Shown one piece after another: positions 34,560 to 40,464 of a DNA stretch of 64,000 bases (positions are counted from its first letter, which is position 1; the number at the start of each line of letters is the position of its first letter). Source of the DNA: Limnobacter sp. MED105. GTDB lineage: Bacteria; Pseudomonadota; Gammaproteobacteria; Burkholderiales; Burkholderiaceae_B. The stretch spans positions 1 through 64,000 of the forward strand of contig NZ_ABCT01000007.1 of assembly GCF_000170915.1 (NCBI RefSeq). Reading direction: 5' to 3'. A program made the position numbers and the translations under genes. Below the pieces are notes generated by a model that saw only the letters and a program-made list of their open reading frames with translations, was not told the DNA's origin and searched no databases.

Positions 34560-34648
34560 CAGAAATGAAAAAAGCCTGAGCTTTTACACTCAGGCTTTTT
34601 GTATTTTGTGGTGGGTCGTGCGAGATTCGAACTCACGACCAAAGGATT
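34560..34648. repeat. Left attachment-site direct repeat with tRNA-Lys 3' remnant
   Basis: This repeat is identical to 40340-40428. It contains a copy of the terminator hairpin (34569-34600) and 40 nt of the 3' part of tRNA-Lys including the T arm and encoded CCA (34609-34648, minus strand). The identity stops inside the anticodon stem, so this copy cannot form a tRNA. Confidence 0.9.
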
Positions 34649-34869
34649 GAAAGCACCTTTGTACACAACCATGTCCTAGCTCGAGTTATGCGTGTTGGGG
34701 CTAGCCAGCCGAGTGTAGTCGTGTGAAATAGTTTAAGAGTGAATAAGTAACCCGAAAAATGGCTACTGCTTGACTACCTAGAATTTTACTCATAGAGGAG
34801 GCTTTGATGTGAAATCAAAAGTGGAATTCTTCTTTAGTCAGCTCCGGAGGTTGCAGTGTGATACCGTTT
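34649..34869. other. Left end of the island, no gene seen
   Basis: These 221 bp lie between the left direct repeat and the GHKL-nuclease stop. No coding frame with a ribosome site, no tRNA and no clear terminator is seen. It would be the expected place for an integrase gene, which is absent. Confidence 0.6.
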
Positions 34870-36717
34870 TCACTTATTGAACATGTCGTAGGCATCGATA
34901 AATTCCTTGTGGTATTCCTTCGATTGCTCCAATAATTCACGATAAGTTTTCACAAAAACCTCTCCAGAGTTCATATAAGTTCTCTCTTTGCTTTTAAAGT
35001 TGTAGTCATCAGATTTCTCACCGCCGACTACAAAACAAACTACTTTGGAGAATCCCGTTGAGCTAGCATATTTATTAGTCAAAAAAGAGCCATACTCATA
35101 AGCCTGTTCTAATGCTTTATGATCGACTTTATATTTACTTTTCTTAATTTCGATAACGTACAAAATTTCACCGAGAGCATTACTGCATAGAAAATCGATC
35201 CTACGATTTTTTTCTTCTAATTCCGAGTTCGGAAATGTTTCTTTTAAAAGCGACGAATAGGTAACCTCATCCCGAAATTCAAGGATTCTTGGGTCTAAAA
35301 GCCATGAAAATTTCTTGAGAAAGTTATGAAGTGTTGGTACCTCTTTTGTATCGTTTTTAATGTGTTCTTCAAATTGCTTAATTACTTCGACTCTAGAGCA
35401 CGCAAGATCTTTAAACTGCTTAGTCTCTATTGATTTCCACTGATTCATTAAATCAAGAAGTTTTGGTATGTCTTCGTCTCTCGAGATATTCGCGATATCT
35501 GAGGCATATCTTTTAAAAGTTTCATTATTAAATTTATCTATTACCCCACCAATTATGCTAGACGCACCCTCAGAGCTGATGTTGTTGTCTTCAAGTATAG
35601 GATTTATAATTTGGCTGCTAAGTTCTTTTTCGTATTTTGGTAACGAACTTTGCCATTTTTCAATATCCAAATTTTTTTCTAATTTTATTTGATCAAGTTT
35701 TAATTTTTGTCTTTTTTTTCTCCATTCGCTTCCTATGTCTCTTATAACTTTCTTGAGGTAAACCTGAAGCTCCTTTGTTACATCGTATTCCCAATTTAAA
35801 GAGTGTCGATCTGTGGAAATTAGATCTTTATCCAGATCGTCAATAAAATCAATGTGTAGATAGCCTGTAATATAATTGTGGAACTGATCGTTGTCACGCA
35901 AACCGAAAAAACTGGCGGAATTTACTATTTTTCCTCTGGATGCGAGATATATCCCGCGCATTTCGGTATCTTTTATTGGTGTTTCTGAGGTTATTATTTT
36001 TCCGGTGATGCTGTTAAAATAACTGTAGTCCTCGCCAAATTCTTTACTTGGAAATTCCCATGTAAATTGACTTTTCATTCCTTTAAATTTGTCCTCATTA
36101 AGAACTTGTTTTGGGTTTGAACCATTCTCTAGAAAAATTAACTTAAATTGATCCAGTACAGTAAATTTTTTAGATATGCTTATTATCATTTCCTCTATAT
36201 TAAATGAGGACTTTCTTCTTACGTCTTTCAGTGTTATTTGAGTCCCGTCGGGATCTGTAGTTTCTATATCTTTTTCAATGATTGTAGGATGATAAGAGTT
36301 ATGCGTACTGCTTTTTATTTTTTCTAGATCAAGTATGAATTGGTTCGCCTTGCCAAATTTAACAGATCGAACTACTACGGAATTACATATGCCAAATACT
36401 GACAGTTTACCTAGACCTTTTTTTCCAATCGGCTTTCGTCCTTTTGGTGTTGTCGGTGTTCCTGACAGTCTTCTGTTGCGGCCTATAACCAGATAATTTT
36501 TGTTTAATTCCTCAAATGTCATTCCATGACCGTCATCTCGAATACTAATTTCCTTTCTATTCTCCAAGGTTAGAAAGTCAACCTTTACTGTCGTAGCATC
36601 TGCGTCCCAAGAGTTGGAGATAAGCTCTGAAAGAACACTCGGCAATTGTGAATAAAGCGAAACACCGAGGTGTTCAATTGTATTTGGATCAAATTTTAAT
36701 TCTAACGTAGTGTTCAT
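34870..36717 (-). CDS. GHKL (MutL/MORC-like) ATPase fused to a PD-(D/E)XK nuclease domain
   Basis: This 615-residue protein has an N-terminal Bergerat-fold ATPase. The N1 box is ELISNSWDADAT (Glu31, Asn35, Asp39), the next motif is DDGHGM (residues 61-66), and the lid is IGKKGLGKLS (97-106). A middle region with charged helices (about 330-400) follows. The C-terminal part, from FLKKFSWLLDPRIL, ends in a nuclease-like core RRIDFLC/YVIEIKKSKY with Asp508, Glu523 and Lys525 in D-x14-E-x-K order, similar to Shedu-type DUF4263 nucleases. MutL/MORC-like ATPases are known in restriction operons. Here nuclease and ATPase are one chain. It is AT-rich and lies last in the island operon. An antiphage role is inferred from context. 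Confidence 0.8.
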   Translation of the reverse strand: MNTTLELKFDPNTIEHLGVSLYSQLPSVLSELISNSWDADATTVKVDFLTLENRKEISIRDDGHGMTFEELNKNYLVIGRNRRLSGTPTTPKGRKPIGKKGLGKLSVFGICNSVVVRSVKFGKANQFILDLEKIKSSTHNSYHPTIIEKDIETTDPDGTQITLKDVRRKSSFNIEEMIISISKKFTVLDQFKLIFLENGSNPKQVLNEDKFKGMKSQFTWEFPSKEFGEDYSYFNSITGKIITSETPIKDTEMRGIYLASRGKIVNSASFFGLRDNDQFHNYITGYLHIDFIDDLDKDLISTDRHSLNWEYDVTKELQVYLKKVIRDIGSEWRKKRQKLKLDQIKLEKNLDIEKWQSSLPKYEKELSSQIINPILEDNNISSEGASSIIGGVIDKFNNETFKRYASDIANISRDEDIPKLLDLMNQWKSIETKQFKDLACSRVEVIKQFEEHIKNDTKEVPTLHNFLKKFSWLLDPRILEFRDEVTYSSLLKETFPNSELEEKNRRIDFLCSNALGEILYVIEIKKSKYKVDHKALEQAYEYGSFLTNKYASSTGFSKVVCFVVGGEKSDDYNFKSKERTYMNSGEVFVKTYRELLEQSKEYHKEFIDAYDMFNK

Positions 36718-36887
36718 GAGCTGCCCTAAAGAAAAGATTTTATCTTCAAAAGGATTGATTTGATTTCTTGTTTTTAATTATTTTTCTAATGGTGATAATT
36801 TTTTGAGTAATTCCTATATTTTTTCTGATTAATATTATTCGATAAAAAATAGTTTTAAAACAAAATTATAATATTTGATTTGTTCTC
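36718..36887. other. AT-rich gap between restriction gene and GHKL-nuclease gene
   Basis: This 170-bp stretch is extremely rich in A and T, with several T and A runs (around 36778-36860). It may hold a promoter for the GHKL-nuclease gene or a terminator for the restriction gene. No open frame is present. Confidence 0.5.
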
Positions 36888-38303
36888 TTAAGTATTATTT
36901 ATACCAAGTGTTAAATATTCATATTTACTATATAAGCTACTGATTTTTTTATGGTTTATTCGGAATTGGCTTCGTCTTTTTATTTTGGGTTTCGTTGAAG
37001 AAGCCTCTTCTAGTTTTATGGCTGGATCGTAGTAGACGTTTCCCTGAGCGATAGCTGCCAAAAGCATTTCGAAACTAGTTCCTATCCCTAATTCTATATT
37101 ATTTCCATATTTGTATTGCTTTATAGCTGTTGGCGATTTTTGAGCCATGCAGGGTATATAAACTGCCTGTGCGTGCTTACGTTTCCAGTGATCCATAATT
37201 TTCGCAAAACTCCAGCTTGCTGCTACATGATCGTTGCTACTGATCAGCGCGATAGTTCCCGCGGCGTCTGTGATCAGGCCATTTTCTGGGTCATATCCGG
37301 AAAACTGCAGTCTTAGGTTTGTAGCCCTGCACAGCTTACCAATTACGTGGCGACCCCCAAAATTTATTCGATCGGGTTTGTTTGATTTGTCGTTATAACC
37401 AAATTTCCTTACGAAATTTTCCACGCCGTTTTCGACATAAAATCCTCCATTAGGTTCAGGGGTCATAAGCGTTGTTGGTTTTGCTCCAATTTTTGGAAAT
37501 CTTGTGATCCCAAATTGCTTAACTTCCCAGCCTAGGAAGTCTGGTTCCGCGACACTATTGGGTACGATTCCCAATTCAGCTTCAAGAGTGTAACCCCCAG
37601 CGTTGGAGGCGCTGTAGGGTTCTTTTATTCCAGAGCTTTCAAGTTTTTGTCCATCAATCCAGCCTAATTCAGTAATTTCTAGAAGTCTAGTTATTAAAGC
37701 GATTTTCGTCGATTTGATTTCTGTTTGCGTAAACCGTAGCTCACCAAATATTGAGTTTATTTCGATAATTTTGGTATCGTTAAGTTCATGGGCAACAGTG
37801 CTGTCTGGAGTTGCTAGGTATGCATAGACGGTATCGTCAGTCGAAATCCCAAGAATCATCCATCGACCTCGAGCCCTACCTTTTTTTTCAACGTTCATCC
37901 AGTCGCTTAAGTTCACAGACGATCCCTTCAAGAATCCTGATAGACGTACTTCAGGGTATTGGGGATAGTAAATAAGTTTTGCTTGTGGTGCTGGGTATGT
38001 ACGTCCTTCTGCGTCGAACCATATTAACTTCATCGTCGCTTGAAATTTAATTTCTCTGTTTTTATTCTTTTTACTTGGCGATTTATTTGATTTAGTTTTG
38101 GAGGCGACTGTTGTACCGGTCGGAATAAAGGGGATATCTGAGAAATGAGCGCCGAAGTAAGGCTGATTCTTACTATTGTCATTGGGTGATAGCTTTTTAA
38201 CGAAAACTCTTTCCGCTCCTAGATCTGAAATAATTCTTAATATCTTTTTTAGGTTTGCATCTTTTGATGGTTTTGTGTCATACGTGCCAATTACATTCGA
38301 CAT
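36888..38303 (-). CDS. Type II restriction endonuclease: EcoRII-N-like domain plus MvaI/BcnI-like catalytic domain
   Basis: This protein has 471 residues, against about 240 for MvaI. Residues 1-185 resemble the EcoRII N-terminal effector domain: VFVKKLSPNDNS (33-44) parallels the KRLSxND motif of EcoRII, and LIYYPQYPEVRLSGF (110-124) parallels its IYY...RITR region. Residues 200-471 are MvaI/BcnI-like, with GGYTLEAELGI (Glu241), PDFLGWEVK (Asp255, Glu260, Lys262), INFGGRHVIGKL and HAQAVYIPC. Both parent families cut CC-N-GG-type sites, so CCWGG or CCSGG is a reasonable guess. The downstream methyltransferase is the expected partner. The N-domain assignment is by motif memory only. Confidence 0.83.
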   Translation of the reverse strand: MSNVIGTYDTKPSKDANLKKILRIISDLGAERVFVKKLSPNDNSKNQPYFGAHFSDIPFIPTGTTVASKTKSNKSPSKKNKNREIKFQATMKLIWFDAEGRTYPAPQAKLIYYPQYPEVRLSGFLKGSSVNLSDWMNVEKKGRARGRWMILGISTDDTVYAYLATPDSTVAHELNDTKIIEINSIFGELRFTQTEIKSTKIALITRLLEITELGWIDGQKLESSGIKEPYSASNAGGYTLEAELGIVPNSVAEPDFLGWEVKQFGITRFPKIGAKPTTLMTPEPNGGFYVENGVENFVRKFGYNDKSNKPDRINFGGRHVIGKLCRATNLRLQFSGYDPENGLITDAAGTIALISSNDHVAASWSFAKIMDHWKRKHAQAVYIPCMAQKSPTAIKQYKYGNNIELGIGTSFEMLLAAIAQGNVYYDPAIKLEEASSTKPKIKRRSQFRINHKKISSLYSKYEYLTLGINNT

Positions 38304-38367
38304 TTAATGGCTCCATTTATCGATCTCGTTGAATATTGTATTCTGTTGAATCAACGTAAGGTAGTCT

Positions 38368-38820
38368 TTATGGAGTGATCTCCGTGGAAGGAATCGGCTC
38401 AACGGTAAGCCATTTGATGATTTCTTCCATGACCTTTTCATAACCATCAAGTTTGAGTTCACGCAATGCGCACTCCCAAACGGTGAGTACTCTCCAACCT
38501 TGCTTCAGAAGCGCGTCTCTGTGAAGGCTGTCGCGTGATCTGTTTCCGTTAATTTTTGCGAGCCAGAACTCAGTTCGTGTTGAAGGGACTTTGAAGAATT
38601 TGCAATCATGGCCATGCCAAAAGCACCCATGAATGTTGATTACGGCTTTGTATTTTGGGAGAACAATGTCTGGCTTACCAGGCAGGGTTTTGTCATGCAG
38701 TTTGAACCGGAAGCCTCGCCTGTGCAGCGCAGAGCGTACAAGAATTTCAGGCCGGGTGTTTTTGCCTTTTATCCCGGCCATCATCCTGCTTCTGGTTTTT
38801 GGATCGACTACATCTGTCAT
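38368..38820 (-). CDS. vsr: Very short patch repair endonuclease
   Basis: This 150-residue Vsr nicks next to T in T:G mismatches that arise when 5-methylcytosine deaminates. Asp51 (LPGKPDIVL), His64 and His69 (NIHGCFWHGHDC) fall at the same numbers as catalytic residues of E. coli Vsr. The N-terminal MAGIKGKNTRPE is the usual family start. The ATG overlaps the methyltransferase stop, so repair is coupled to methylation. Position 63 is Ile rather than the Thr of E. coli. Confidence 0.96.
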   Translation of the reverse strand: MTDVVDPKTRSRMMAGIKGKNTRPEILVRSALHRRGFRFKLHDKTLPGKPDIVLPKYKAVINIHGCFWHGHDCKFFKVPSTRTEFWLAKINGNRSRDSLHRDALLKQGWRVLTVWECALRELKLDGYEKVMEEIIKWLTVEPIPSTEITP

Positions 38821-40124
38821 CCTGCCATGCGAACAAGTGGCAATTCGGGTTGCATGTCTTCAGCTACAAACTGGCACATCAATTTGGCAGCATGCTCCAT
38901 CACATCAACAACTACAGAGTTGCCAAACTGTTTGTAAGCTCGGGTATCAGAAACCGGAATTCTGAAATCATCAGGAAAGCCCATCAGGCGAGCACACTCG
39001 CGAGGTGTAAGGCGTCTGGGATTCTTTTTTTTGCCTTGATCAACAAGAATTTCCGATCCGTCTTTGTAATACCGTGCAGACAGGGTTCGGGTTGTGCTCT
39101 CTGGGCCAACCAGACCAAACCCAAAACCGTTGCCTTTGGCTTTATGTTTCGCTGCATAGTTTTGCAGGTAAGTCCAAAGGCCCGGGGTTAGGGTGTATTT
39201 GTCTTGCACTTTCTTGCTGTCGTGGTCGAAGAAACGGTTTTCATCCCAAGGCAGGTAGGGTTCTGAACCGTCTGTCTTGTGCAAAATTTCTTTGAGTTTT
39301 CTGGAGCCTTTCGGCGGCAAAGGAATTGCGTCCCAATCAAAAGCAACCTGGTCTGCAAAGCCAGCGATCAAAATACGTTCGCGGTGTTGCGGCGTGAAAT
39401 GAGCGCCATCGATTACTCGACAATGAATCTTGTAGCCCAGGTCTTTCTCTAGCGTTTCTTTGATCACTGTAAAGGTACGGCCCTTATCATGCGATACAAG
39501 GTTCTTTACGTTCTCGAGCAGGAATGCACGTGGACGTTTGTCTTTGATAATTCGGGCGACATCAAAAAACAATGTGCCTTGAGTCTCATCCAGAAAGCCA
39601 TGCGAACGGCCAAGAGAGTTCTTCTTGGATACTCCTGCAATCGAGAAAGGCTGGCATGGAAAGCCTGCAAGCAACACGTCGTGATTTGGAATATCGACAG
39701 TATTGACCTTTGTGATATCACCGGAAATCTCGTGATGGTCACGCTGGTAGTTCTCTCTGTACGTTTTCTGGGCGTAACTGTCCCATTCGCTGGTAAATAC
39801 GCATTTTCCGCCCTGGTTTTCAAATGCTCGTCTAATACCACCCACGCCCGCGAAAAGGTCGATGAAGGTGAAAGCGTGGTTTTCGTCCTCAAGAGGAAGT
39901 TCTGGTGGAAGGAACTGACGCAGGGCAATGCTAGTGTATGAGGGAGGAATACTGTCGCCGTTTTCCCATCTTCGAATGGTTCTGGAGTCCACTCGCAGGG
40001 CTTGTGCAATGTCTTTTTTGGATTTGAATTTAAGGACTTGCGCTAACAGTGCCTGGAAGTGGAAGTTCTCTGGAGCATTCATCAGTACGAATTCCTCTGG
40101 GTCAAAAAGCGGACAAATTGTCAT
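38817..40124 (-). CDS. DNA (cytosine-5-)-methyltransferase with N-terminal helix-turn-helix
   Basis: This protein has 435 residues from the ATG at 40124, chosen for AGGAA 7 nt upstream; an 18-codon extension to a TTG is less likely. Residues about 36-54 form a helix-turn-helix (KKDIAQALRVDSRTIRRWEN), which may let the enzyme repress its own promoter. Catalytic motifs follow: I FIDLFAGVGGIRRAFE, IV GFPCQPFS (Cys157), VI LLENVKNL, VIII HRERILIAGF, and X GNSVV. The target-recognition region lies between VIII and IX (about 260-370). It protects DNA from the island endonuclease; the coupled Vsr confirms 5-methylcytosine chemistry. Confidence 0.95.
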   Translation of the reverse strand: MTICPLFDPEEFVLMNAPENFHFQALLAQVLKFKSKKDIAQALRVDSRTIRRWENGDSIPPSYTSIALRQFLPPELPLEDENHAFTFIDLFAGVGGIRRAFENQGGKCVFTSEWDSYAQKTYRENYQRDHHEISGDITKVNTVDIPNHDVLLAGFPCQPFSIAGVSKKNSLGRSHGFLDETQGTLFFDVARIIKDKRPRAFLLENVKNLVSHDKGRTFTVIKETLEKDLGYKIHCRVIDGAHFTPQHRERILIAGFADQVAFDWDAIPLPPKGSRKLKEILHKTDGSEPYLPWDENRFFDHDSKKVQDKYTLTPGLWTYLQNYAAKHKAKGNGFGFGLVGPESTTRTLSARYYKDGSEILVDQGKKKNPRRLTPRECARLMGFPDDFRIPVSDTRAYKQFGNSVVVDVMEHAAKLMCQFVAEDMQPELPLVRMAG

Positions 40125-40339
40125 GTAATCGTTCCTATCATAGCTAAAAAATGCCCCTAAGCCTTCTGAAGTCGACAAATATTCAGCGAAATCGTCATTT
40201 TTATGGGAGCCGAATGACGCGGAATACTGATTGGGGTGGACAGGAATTCAAACACGAAAAAACTGTATATTAAAACAGTATTATTCTGAATGGGGTGAGT
40301 GGTTAACCAGATTTGATGGAGTGAAGTTCTTTTGAGAGA
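40125..40339. other. Upstream control region of the methyltransferase operon
   Basis: This 215-bp region lies between the methyltransferase start and the right direct repeat. It carries an inverted repeat, ACTGT/ACAGT, around 40265-40281, a possible operator for the helix-turn-helix of the methyltransferase. No gene is seen. Confidence 0.4.
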
Positions 40340-40428
40340 CAGAAATGAAAAAAGCCTGAGCTTTTACACTCAGGCTTTTTGTATTTTGTGGTGGGTCGTG
40401 CGAGATTCGAACTCACGACCAAAGGATT
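40340..40428. repeat. Right attachment-site direct repeat
   Basis: This repeat is identical over 89 bp to 34560-34648. It covers the terminator of tRNA-Lys and the 3' 40 nt of the intact tRNA gene. Confidence 0.9.
40349..40380. terminator. Intrinsic terminator of tRNA-Lys
   Basis: AAAAAGCCTGAG and CTCAGGCTTTTT pair around an 8-nt loop, with T runs on both strands. It lies 8 bp after the tRNA 3' end on the minus strand and is duplicated at 34569-34600 by the island insertion. Confidence 0.9.
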
Positions 40429-40464
40429 AAAAGTCCTCTGCTCTACCAGCTGAGCTAACGACCC
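40389..40464 (-). tRNA. tRNA-Lys, anticodon TTT
   Basis: A 76-nt cloverleaf with encoded CCA. Acceptor arms GGGTCGT/ACGACCC, D arm GCTC-AGCTGGTAGAGC, anticodon stem GAGGA with loop CTTTTAA (anticodon TTT), variable loop, and T arm with GTTCGAATC. The island is inserted at its 3' end, but this copy remains complete. Confidence 0.97.

Follow-up and report, generated by a model that had tools for sequence, protein, structure and literature searches.

A predicted paraMORC3-like GHKL ATPase-nuclease behind a Dcm-type restriction-modification system on a tRNA-Lys islet of Limnobacter sp. MED105

The window, i.e., the whole stretch of DNA analysed here, comprises 64,000 nucleotides of Limnobacter sp. 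MED105 (NZ_ABCT01000007.1, positions 1-64,000) and contains a 5.8-kb islet of four genes bounded by 94-bp repeats. All four are read from the same strand, beginning with a Dcm-type m5C methyltransferase (P0004, 38817..40178 (-), 453 aa) with an N-terminal HTH. It is followed by a Vsr mismatch endonuclease (38368..38820 (-), 150 aa), whose gene overlaps the methylase gene by 4 bp, by a type II restriction endonuclease of the MvaI/BcnI family (P0002, 36888..38303 (-), 471 aa), in which a PDFLGWEVK stretch is common to its relatives, and by P0001 (34870..36717 (-), 615 aa), a GHKL ATPase joined to a Shedu-like PD-(D/E)XK nuclease. The list of open reading frames showed no other sizeable sense-strand gene in the islet. 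The first-pass annotation had described P0001 as a GHKL-nuclease fusion in a restriction-Vsr-methylase setting; the fusion was borne out by motifs, profile matches and a model of the C-terminus, and the setting by Pfam matches to MvaI_BcnI (E=1.8e-39), Vsr (E=7.3e-31) and DNA_methylase (E=7e-83).

The P0001 gene is a single ATG-started frame with exactly the limits given above. Pfam HATPase_c_3 matched residues 26-149 (E=6.7e-22), and the GHKL motifs comprise E31, N35, D61-D62-G63-H64-G65-M66 and G98-K99-K100-G101-L102-G103-K104. The ATPase residues proposed earlier are all in place except Asp39, which is off by one, the aspartates being D38 and D40. The nuclease domain (34873..35400 (-), residues 440-615) carries E484, D508 and E523-x-K525, the last three at the positions that had been claimed for the nuclease core, plus Q538-x-x-x-Y542, which we take to be a RecB-like motif. 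Conservation was assessed in an alignment of 87 rows including P0001 and limited to frames of at least 560 aa. The position of E31 is Glu in 85 rows and a gap in 2, D508 is Asp in 84, E523 is Glu in 84 and Asp in 2, and K525 is Lys in 78 and Met in 5. Judged from the sequence, both catalytic sites of P0001 are intact.

Almost the entire protein (residues 6-611) aligned to NF050001, the NCBIfam model of BbrUII/HgiDII family restriction enzymes (E=4.5e-95), which was matched by 40/40 aligned family members. The score of 319.6 bits lies below the equivalog cut-off of 550, and by this alignment P0001 is a full-length relative of the BbrUII/HgiDII enzymes and no equivalog. PADLOC assigned it to two models named 'Type II restriction enzyme' (E=2.3e-40 and 1.4e-31), and Pfam HSDR_N_2 matched residues 500-565 slightly below the family cut-off. 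SduA_C (PF14082, presumably the former DUF4263) gave no Pfam match to P0001 at E<=1 and was dropped as proof of Shedu membership; at E<=0.01 it matched 6/40 aligned members and NucS_C 3/40, P0001 being among neither. A MutL identity was also rejected, as TIGR00585 reached 32.6 bits against a cut-off of 180 and covered only the ATP motif region (residues 27-72). Sequence searches against solved structures yielded nothing better than weak or chance matches with P0001 (best E=0.078) and a single, chance-like one with P0002.

AlphaFold2, run on an alignment of P0001 and 39 hand-picked relatives, gave a whole-protein model with a mean pLDDT of 84.2 and a pTM of only 0.60, which leaves the arrangement of the domains unsure. 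The best PDB matches of this model in Foldseek were the ATPase modules of Hsp90/TRAP1, MORC3/4 and SMCHD1; the 50 PDB matches listed covered 368-439 aligned columns with TM by query length of 0.25-0.39. By its predicted fold alone, an S5-type domain follows the GHKL domain, and the two would occupy 35683..36717 (-) (approximately residues 1-345, with the boundary set by eye on the model). Among the viral structures listed as matches of the P0001 model, many were phage RIIA proteins.

Residues 440-615 modelled separately (176 aa, 39 rows) reached a mean pLDDT of 91.0 and were predicted to adopt a PD-(D/E)XK nuclease fold, with the secondary elements H-H-E-H-E-E-H-E-H-E-H. DNA-bound E. coli SduA ranked first in Foldseek (8ps5, E=1.4e-6); next came EndoMS (5gke), a repair endonuclease from Pyrococcus (2vld) and the Shedu nuclease of Bacillus cereus (8ti9). 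The TM by query length ranged from 0.47 to 0.52 over these four, with 0.52 for both 8ps5 and 8ti9, thus the nuclease fold is clear, but Shedu stands only modestly closer than EndoMS/NucS. The likeness to Shedu-type DUF4263 domains put forward in the first-pass annotation therefore holds for the fold and fails for the SduA_C profile. The modelled C-terminus has the Shedu nuclease fold, not exclusively so, since EndoMS/NucS fits nearly as well.

P0004 and E. coli Dcm share 53% identity overall and 63% in the TRD, from which CCWGG, the sequence recognised by Dcm, or a close motif is predicted as its target. The 64-kb window has 185 CCWGG sites, of which CCAGG accounts for 85 (114.6 by a Markov estimate) and CCTGG for 100 (117.7). 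P0004 is the sole PF00145 match in an assembly that is approximately 96% complete, which leaves room for a separate partner methylase outside the assembled part; by this profile no second m5C methylase was found. Together with Vsr and P0002, P0004 forms a complete Dcm-type type II restriction-modification (R-M) system, each of the three proteins scoring above its Pfam cut-off. No close relatives of P0002 were detected in 59 other genomes from the genus, family and order, and 17 plasmid records matched it with 27-44% identity over at least 80% of its length. The dcm-Vsr-MvaI/BcnI set thus occurs on plasmids, the Runella copy being without an annotated Vsr. Seven of these 17 records were opened, and in six of them the available stretches show no GHKL frame; in the seventh, from Celeribacter (L023), a second m5C methylase and a truncated GHKL gene lie 2.5 kb on.

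The islet is inserted at a tRNA-Lys (TTT) gene (40389..40464 (-)). The proximal copy of the 94-bp direct repeat (40340..40433) contains the tRNA 3' end and the terminator, and the distal copy (34560..34653) is identical to it at 93/94 positions. The tRNA region was searched in 15 congeners (G001-G015), of which 12 were followed further. An empty site with a single repeat copy and colinear flanks on both sides is present in G005, G007, G012 and G013, and the islet thus has both marks of an island, direct repeats with a tRNA 3' end and an unoccupied site in relatives. G001, G003, G006 and G011 hold 2.7-5.7 kb of other DNA between the same flanks, with no second repeat found, and for G004, G008 and G009 the available stretch did not reveal the far flank. 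The genes seen at the site in congeners (L168-L175) include HipA-type genes (G001, G003), a Phd/YefM antitoxin (G011) and a methyltransferase-HNH protein (G003). In G014 (L177:158-19301), the tRNA-Lys 3' end recurs 19 kb on, alike in 52/54 bases, and the DNA between the copies carries an m5C methylase, a full MZA set (MzaA-MzaE by PADLOC) and transposase genes. This methylase is 42-43% identical to those found next to members of the P0001 clade (described below) in L033, L042 and L084. G014 would represent a second defence cargo at the tRNA-Lys site, with another GHKL protein, MzaB; the left flank of the islet was not found within 7.8 kb past its second copy, so a single insertion in G014 is not proven. 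The tRNA-Lys site is variable within the genus.

The third-position GC content is 0.49 for the methylase, 0.50 for Vsr, 0.35 for the restriction endonuclease and 0.32 for P0001, against 0.63-0.64 for two flanking genes, and a 170-bp AT-rich gap precedes P0001. These differences, along with the absence from relatives, indicate that the set probably combines genes of different origin and entered the genome in this lineage. Since the islet is absent from congeners it should be recent, and an intact frame is therefore no proof of selection for function. PF00589 (tyrosine integrase) matched eight places in the genome and none at 34560-40433. A review (PMC3874152) describes R-M systems whose insertion duplicates a target of about 100 bp, and the cases covered in the available text resemble the islet, with its 94-bp repeats and the unoccupied site of its relatives. 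Here, as in islands made by integrases, the repeated sequence belongs to the 3' end of a tRNA gene. An integrase supplied from another place and a long R-M-type target duplication would both fit, and the tRNA end favours the integrase. Promoter-like sites show no excess in the islet (10 vs 13.1 expected from shuffles); terminator-like sites number 10 vs 5.7, and four of them come from the two repeat copies, each counted once per strand.

The 59 other genomes of the genus, family and order contained no close relative of P0001, four of them having distant matches (best 25% identity), and two of 368 further genomes of the class had matches at E<=1e-25. Gene neighbourhoods were compared in 115 loci, i.e., the best 80 of 239 relatives from genome scans, 29 viral and 6 plasmid or phage loci, of which 111 yielded a GHKL-like frame in a blastp panel. 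In 68/111 loci, a GHKL frame of 480 aa or more has an m5C methylase frame of 280 aa or more no further than 300 bp away, and in 41 of these 68 the two frames overlap. The other 43 loci comprise contig ends, short or split frames, more distant methylases and some loci where no methylase was found; with only nine methylase references in the panel, missed methylases are likely, and the Mycoplasmoides locus (L068) was translated here with the wrong genetic code. Pairwise distances of GHKL proteins and methylases were correlated (r=0.62 for 68 pairs, maximum of 2000 permutations 0.10), a value uncorrected for shared ancestry and for near-identical HaeIII-linked copies. Given the 68 loci with a methylase neighbour, the GHKL-nuclease family appears to consist mostly of restriction partners of m5C methylases.

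P0001 fell into a 17-row clade with 100/100 support in a maximum-likelihood tree of 45 rows, built from frames of 560 aa or more with at least 33% identity, three more distant ones and P0001. An m5C methylase lies within 110 bp in 11 of its 16 clade relatives and 1.2-4.9 kb away in three; none was found in L036, near a contig start, and in L041. None of the 14 methylases is of the Dcm type, and they share 23-27% identity with P0004. They belong to clearly different subfamilies, with identities down to 18-27%, and that of L040 lies 1.2 kb away on the opposite strand; partners thus seem to have been exchanged. As judged by its sequence neighbours, the usual kind of partner methylase is absent beside P0001. 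A search with four reference sequences found no MvaI/BcnI gene in the 111 GHKL loci, a set to which L023 does not belong. The pairing seen on the islet is unusual for the family, yet has a parallel in the MvaI_BcnI genes reported next to a different GHKL family (PMC8011034), and may have arisen by accident.

Elsewhere the GHKL gene follows other systems. In six loci (L053, L056, L057, L060, L016, L111) a HaeIII-type methylase and endonuclease are followed by the GHKL gene and a second methylase, some of these frames being split in L056 and L111. In L045 a Dcm-related methylase, an HpaII endonuclease and the GHKL gene succeed one another, and L048 has the same order by similarity of the middle gene. 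A type I-like system, recognised by similarity, neighbours the relative in L039. In L049 (1147-8890), drmA, drmB and a PLD protein (DISARM) are directly followed by a GHKL-nuclease relative, placed as if part of the DISARM operon. In L041 (1257-8854), which belongs to the P0001 clade, mzaC-mzaD-mzaE precede the relative, which perhaps replaces MzaB. These varied contexts suggest that the GHKL-nuclease module moves between systems. Two that were checked (L063, L069) from a set of shorter relatives have a Ymh (HEPN) domain in place of the nuclease, a fusion already described (PMC3710099, available text).

Several further arrangements were observed around the relatives. L037 (1460-8863) and L062 (331-8851) bring together Vsr, an m5C methylase, a kinase/ORC-like protein of about 1237 aa and the GHKL nuclease, and the kinase/ORC-like protein of L037 is a strong PADLOC match to CARF_STK_AAA. 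In L040, L047 and L050 the GHKL nuclease directly follows a dnaA-dnaN-(recF)-gyrB-like order, with genes named by eye, which could mark an insertion spot after gyrB. The methylases at L034:6009-6971, which was checked with PF00145, and L040:10067-11050 have SPECT, where others near GHKL nucleases have PPCQ or a close variant. On a viral contig (L135:4327-7554), a GHKL protein 33% identical to MzaB of G014 over 341 aa comes after a Vsr gene and a Dcm-type methylase with 59% identity to P0004.

With the usual m5C partner absent and the sole m5C methylase found already part of a complete system, P0001 looks like an added second nuclease, either licensed by the mark of this system or needing none. 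In our view P0001 probably acts as a paraMORC3-type nuclease that cuts DNA under the control of ATP, riding on the islet behind the Dcm-type methylase, Vsr and MvaI/BcnI endonuclease. By analogy with VcSduA and with GHKL enzymes generally, ATP binding would make the GHKL/S5 parts of two subunits pair up and clamp DNA, and the dimer would bring two C-terminal Shedu-like nuclease domains together and cut incoming phage or plasmid DNA. The ATP-gated defence suggested in the first-pass annotation is plausible on the same analogy. In the wider family, the cue that tells self from non-self is probably most often m5C methylation by the partner methylase. As for the tolerance of P0001 by its host, there is about an even chance that no methylation is needed for self-avoidance, as in stand-alone VcSduA; protection by the Dcm-type mark could also explain it, more tentatively, and idleness of the protein is an improbable reason.

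P0001 could be an ATP-gated Shedu-like effector triggered by phage DNA structures or ends and independent of methylation, and this we regard as a serious candidate, if somewhat short of an even chance. SduA is the best structural match of its nuclease, VcSduA protects as a single gene with the same architecture (PMC12137116, available text), and the panel finds no m5C methylase beside the relatives in the MZA (L041) and DISARM (L049) loci. However, methylase neighbours in most loci, including those of the P0001 clade, argue against independence, as do the missing SduA_C match and the about equal fit of EndoMS/NucS to the fold. Alternatively, P0001 could cut DNA without CCWGG-type m5C, with P0004 protecting the host from both P0001 and the MvaI/BcnI enzyme. 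P0004 is the only m5C methylase found in the genome, and partners appear to be exchanged within the clade. Moreover, the relatives in L045 and L048, 41-42% identical, directly follow their Dcm-related methylase and HpaII-type endonuclease, the panel detecting no further m5C methylase in the 15.8 and 4.8 kb available, respectively, and the relative in L050 lies 2.2 kb away from a methylase with 55% identity to P0004 in the TRD. But the nearest relatives of P0001 pair with another methylase family, 24-28% identical to P0004, the methylases of L045 and L048 have a different TRD (16-26% to P0004), no MvaI/BcnI gene was found in the 111 GHKL loci, and the GHKL fragment of L023 has its own methylase, which makes a shared mark rather unlikely. 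Improbable in our estimate is the idea that the GHKL-nuclease is a transferable ATP-gated effector licensed by the self-mark of any neighbour, in which case P0001 would have switched partner and would read the CCWGG mark, and one methylase would license two unrelated nucleases.

Loss of the methylase during assembly of the islet, leaving P0001 as a silent or inactive orphan, would agree with the absent partner, the uneven third-position GC content and the AT-rich gap; the intact frame and complete set of catalytic residues speak against it, and we hold it to be unlikely. A role as back-up or guard of the neighbouring system, analogous to the PrrC-like one proposed for paraMORC-Ymh proteins, has some appeal because relatives stand directly behind complete HaeIII (L053, L057, L060) or HpaII (L045) systems. 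However, the HaeIII-linked copies are followed by their own second methylase and look like tandem systems, and in most loci no second endonuclease of the panel types was seen. With an m5C methylase close to the relative in 68/111 loci, P0001 more likely has a role of its own as a restriction nuclease, and the back-up role, also raised in the first-pass annotation, seems very unlikely. An added second nuclease behind the Dcm-type system thus remains our preferred reading. The islet offers a simple natural case, with one gene and one methylase, in which the need of such a nuclease for methylation in sparing the host can be studied. Across the family an m5C-methylase partner appears to be usual but open to loss or exchange, and the tRNA-Lys site points to compact defence sets that arrive repeatedly and in which no integrase of their own was seen.

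The fusion of a GHKL ATPase with a nuclease is already known as paraMORC3, described by Iyer, Abhiman and Aravind in 2008 (PMC2292703). The available text of that paper defines it by a GHKL domain, an S5 domain and a C-terminal restriction-fold domain with E-D-ExK, and places it in R-M loci with DNA methylases and Vsr, with some members standing alone. P0001 shares the N-terminal GHKL domain with its ATP motifs, an S5-type domain by fold, the E-D-ExK nuclease and an R-M neighbourhood with m5C methylase and Vsr; it differs in its position after a full type II system that already includes an MvaI/BcnI endonuclease. Plasmid dcm-(Vsr)-MvaI/BcnI systems consist of the same genes as the islet, and among the seven records opened the only GHKL gene is the truncated one of L023. 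MvaI_BcnI, Vsr and C5-methylase genes also occur near HEF_HK, another paraMORC-related GHKL family (PMC8011034); in the text available, HEF_HK/Response_reg_2 is described as histidine-kinase-like with a response-regulator-like partner, which sets it apart from P0001. The paraMORC-Ymh (HEPN) fusions of R-M loci have been proposed to act like PrrC/RloC (PMC3710099, available text).

The closest functional precedent is VcSduA, in which a GHKL ATPase is joined to a nuclease of the Shedu type. It gives protection from T1-like phages, and either E27A (GHKL Glu) or K557A (nuclease Lys) abolishes this anti-phage activity (PMC12137116). It has the same architecture as P0001, and no methylase is mentioned in the available text. 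The catalytic Glu and nuclease Lys, compared by spacing, are 530 residues apart in VcSduA and 494 in P0001, and no row of the 87-row alignment has a spacing identical to that of VcSduA. Proteins of the VcSduA type had been annotated as paraMORC3, and the available text of the same paper equates paraMORC3 with GHKL-type Shedu. The family model of the BbrUII/HgiDII enzymes aligns with P0001 over its full length, and P0001 differs from these enzymes in lacking its own kind of methylase partner; the literature searched contained nothing linking HgiDII with restriction and ATP, its available text on BbrUII deals with the methylase, and it uses the names BbrUII and paraMORC3 apart. Our findings link the two, and BbrUII/HgiDII, paraMORC3 and GHKL-type Shedu look like one GHKL-nuclease family.
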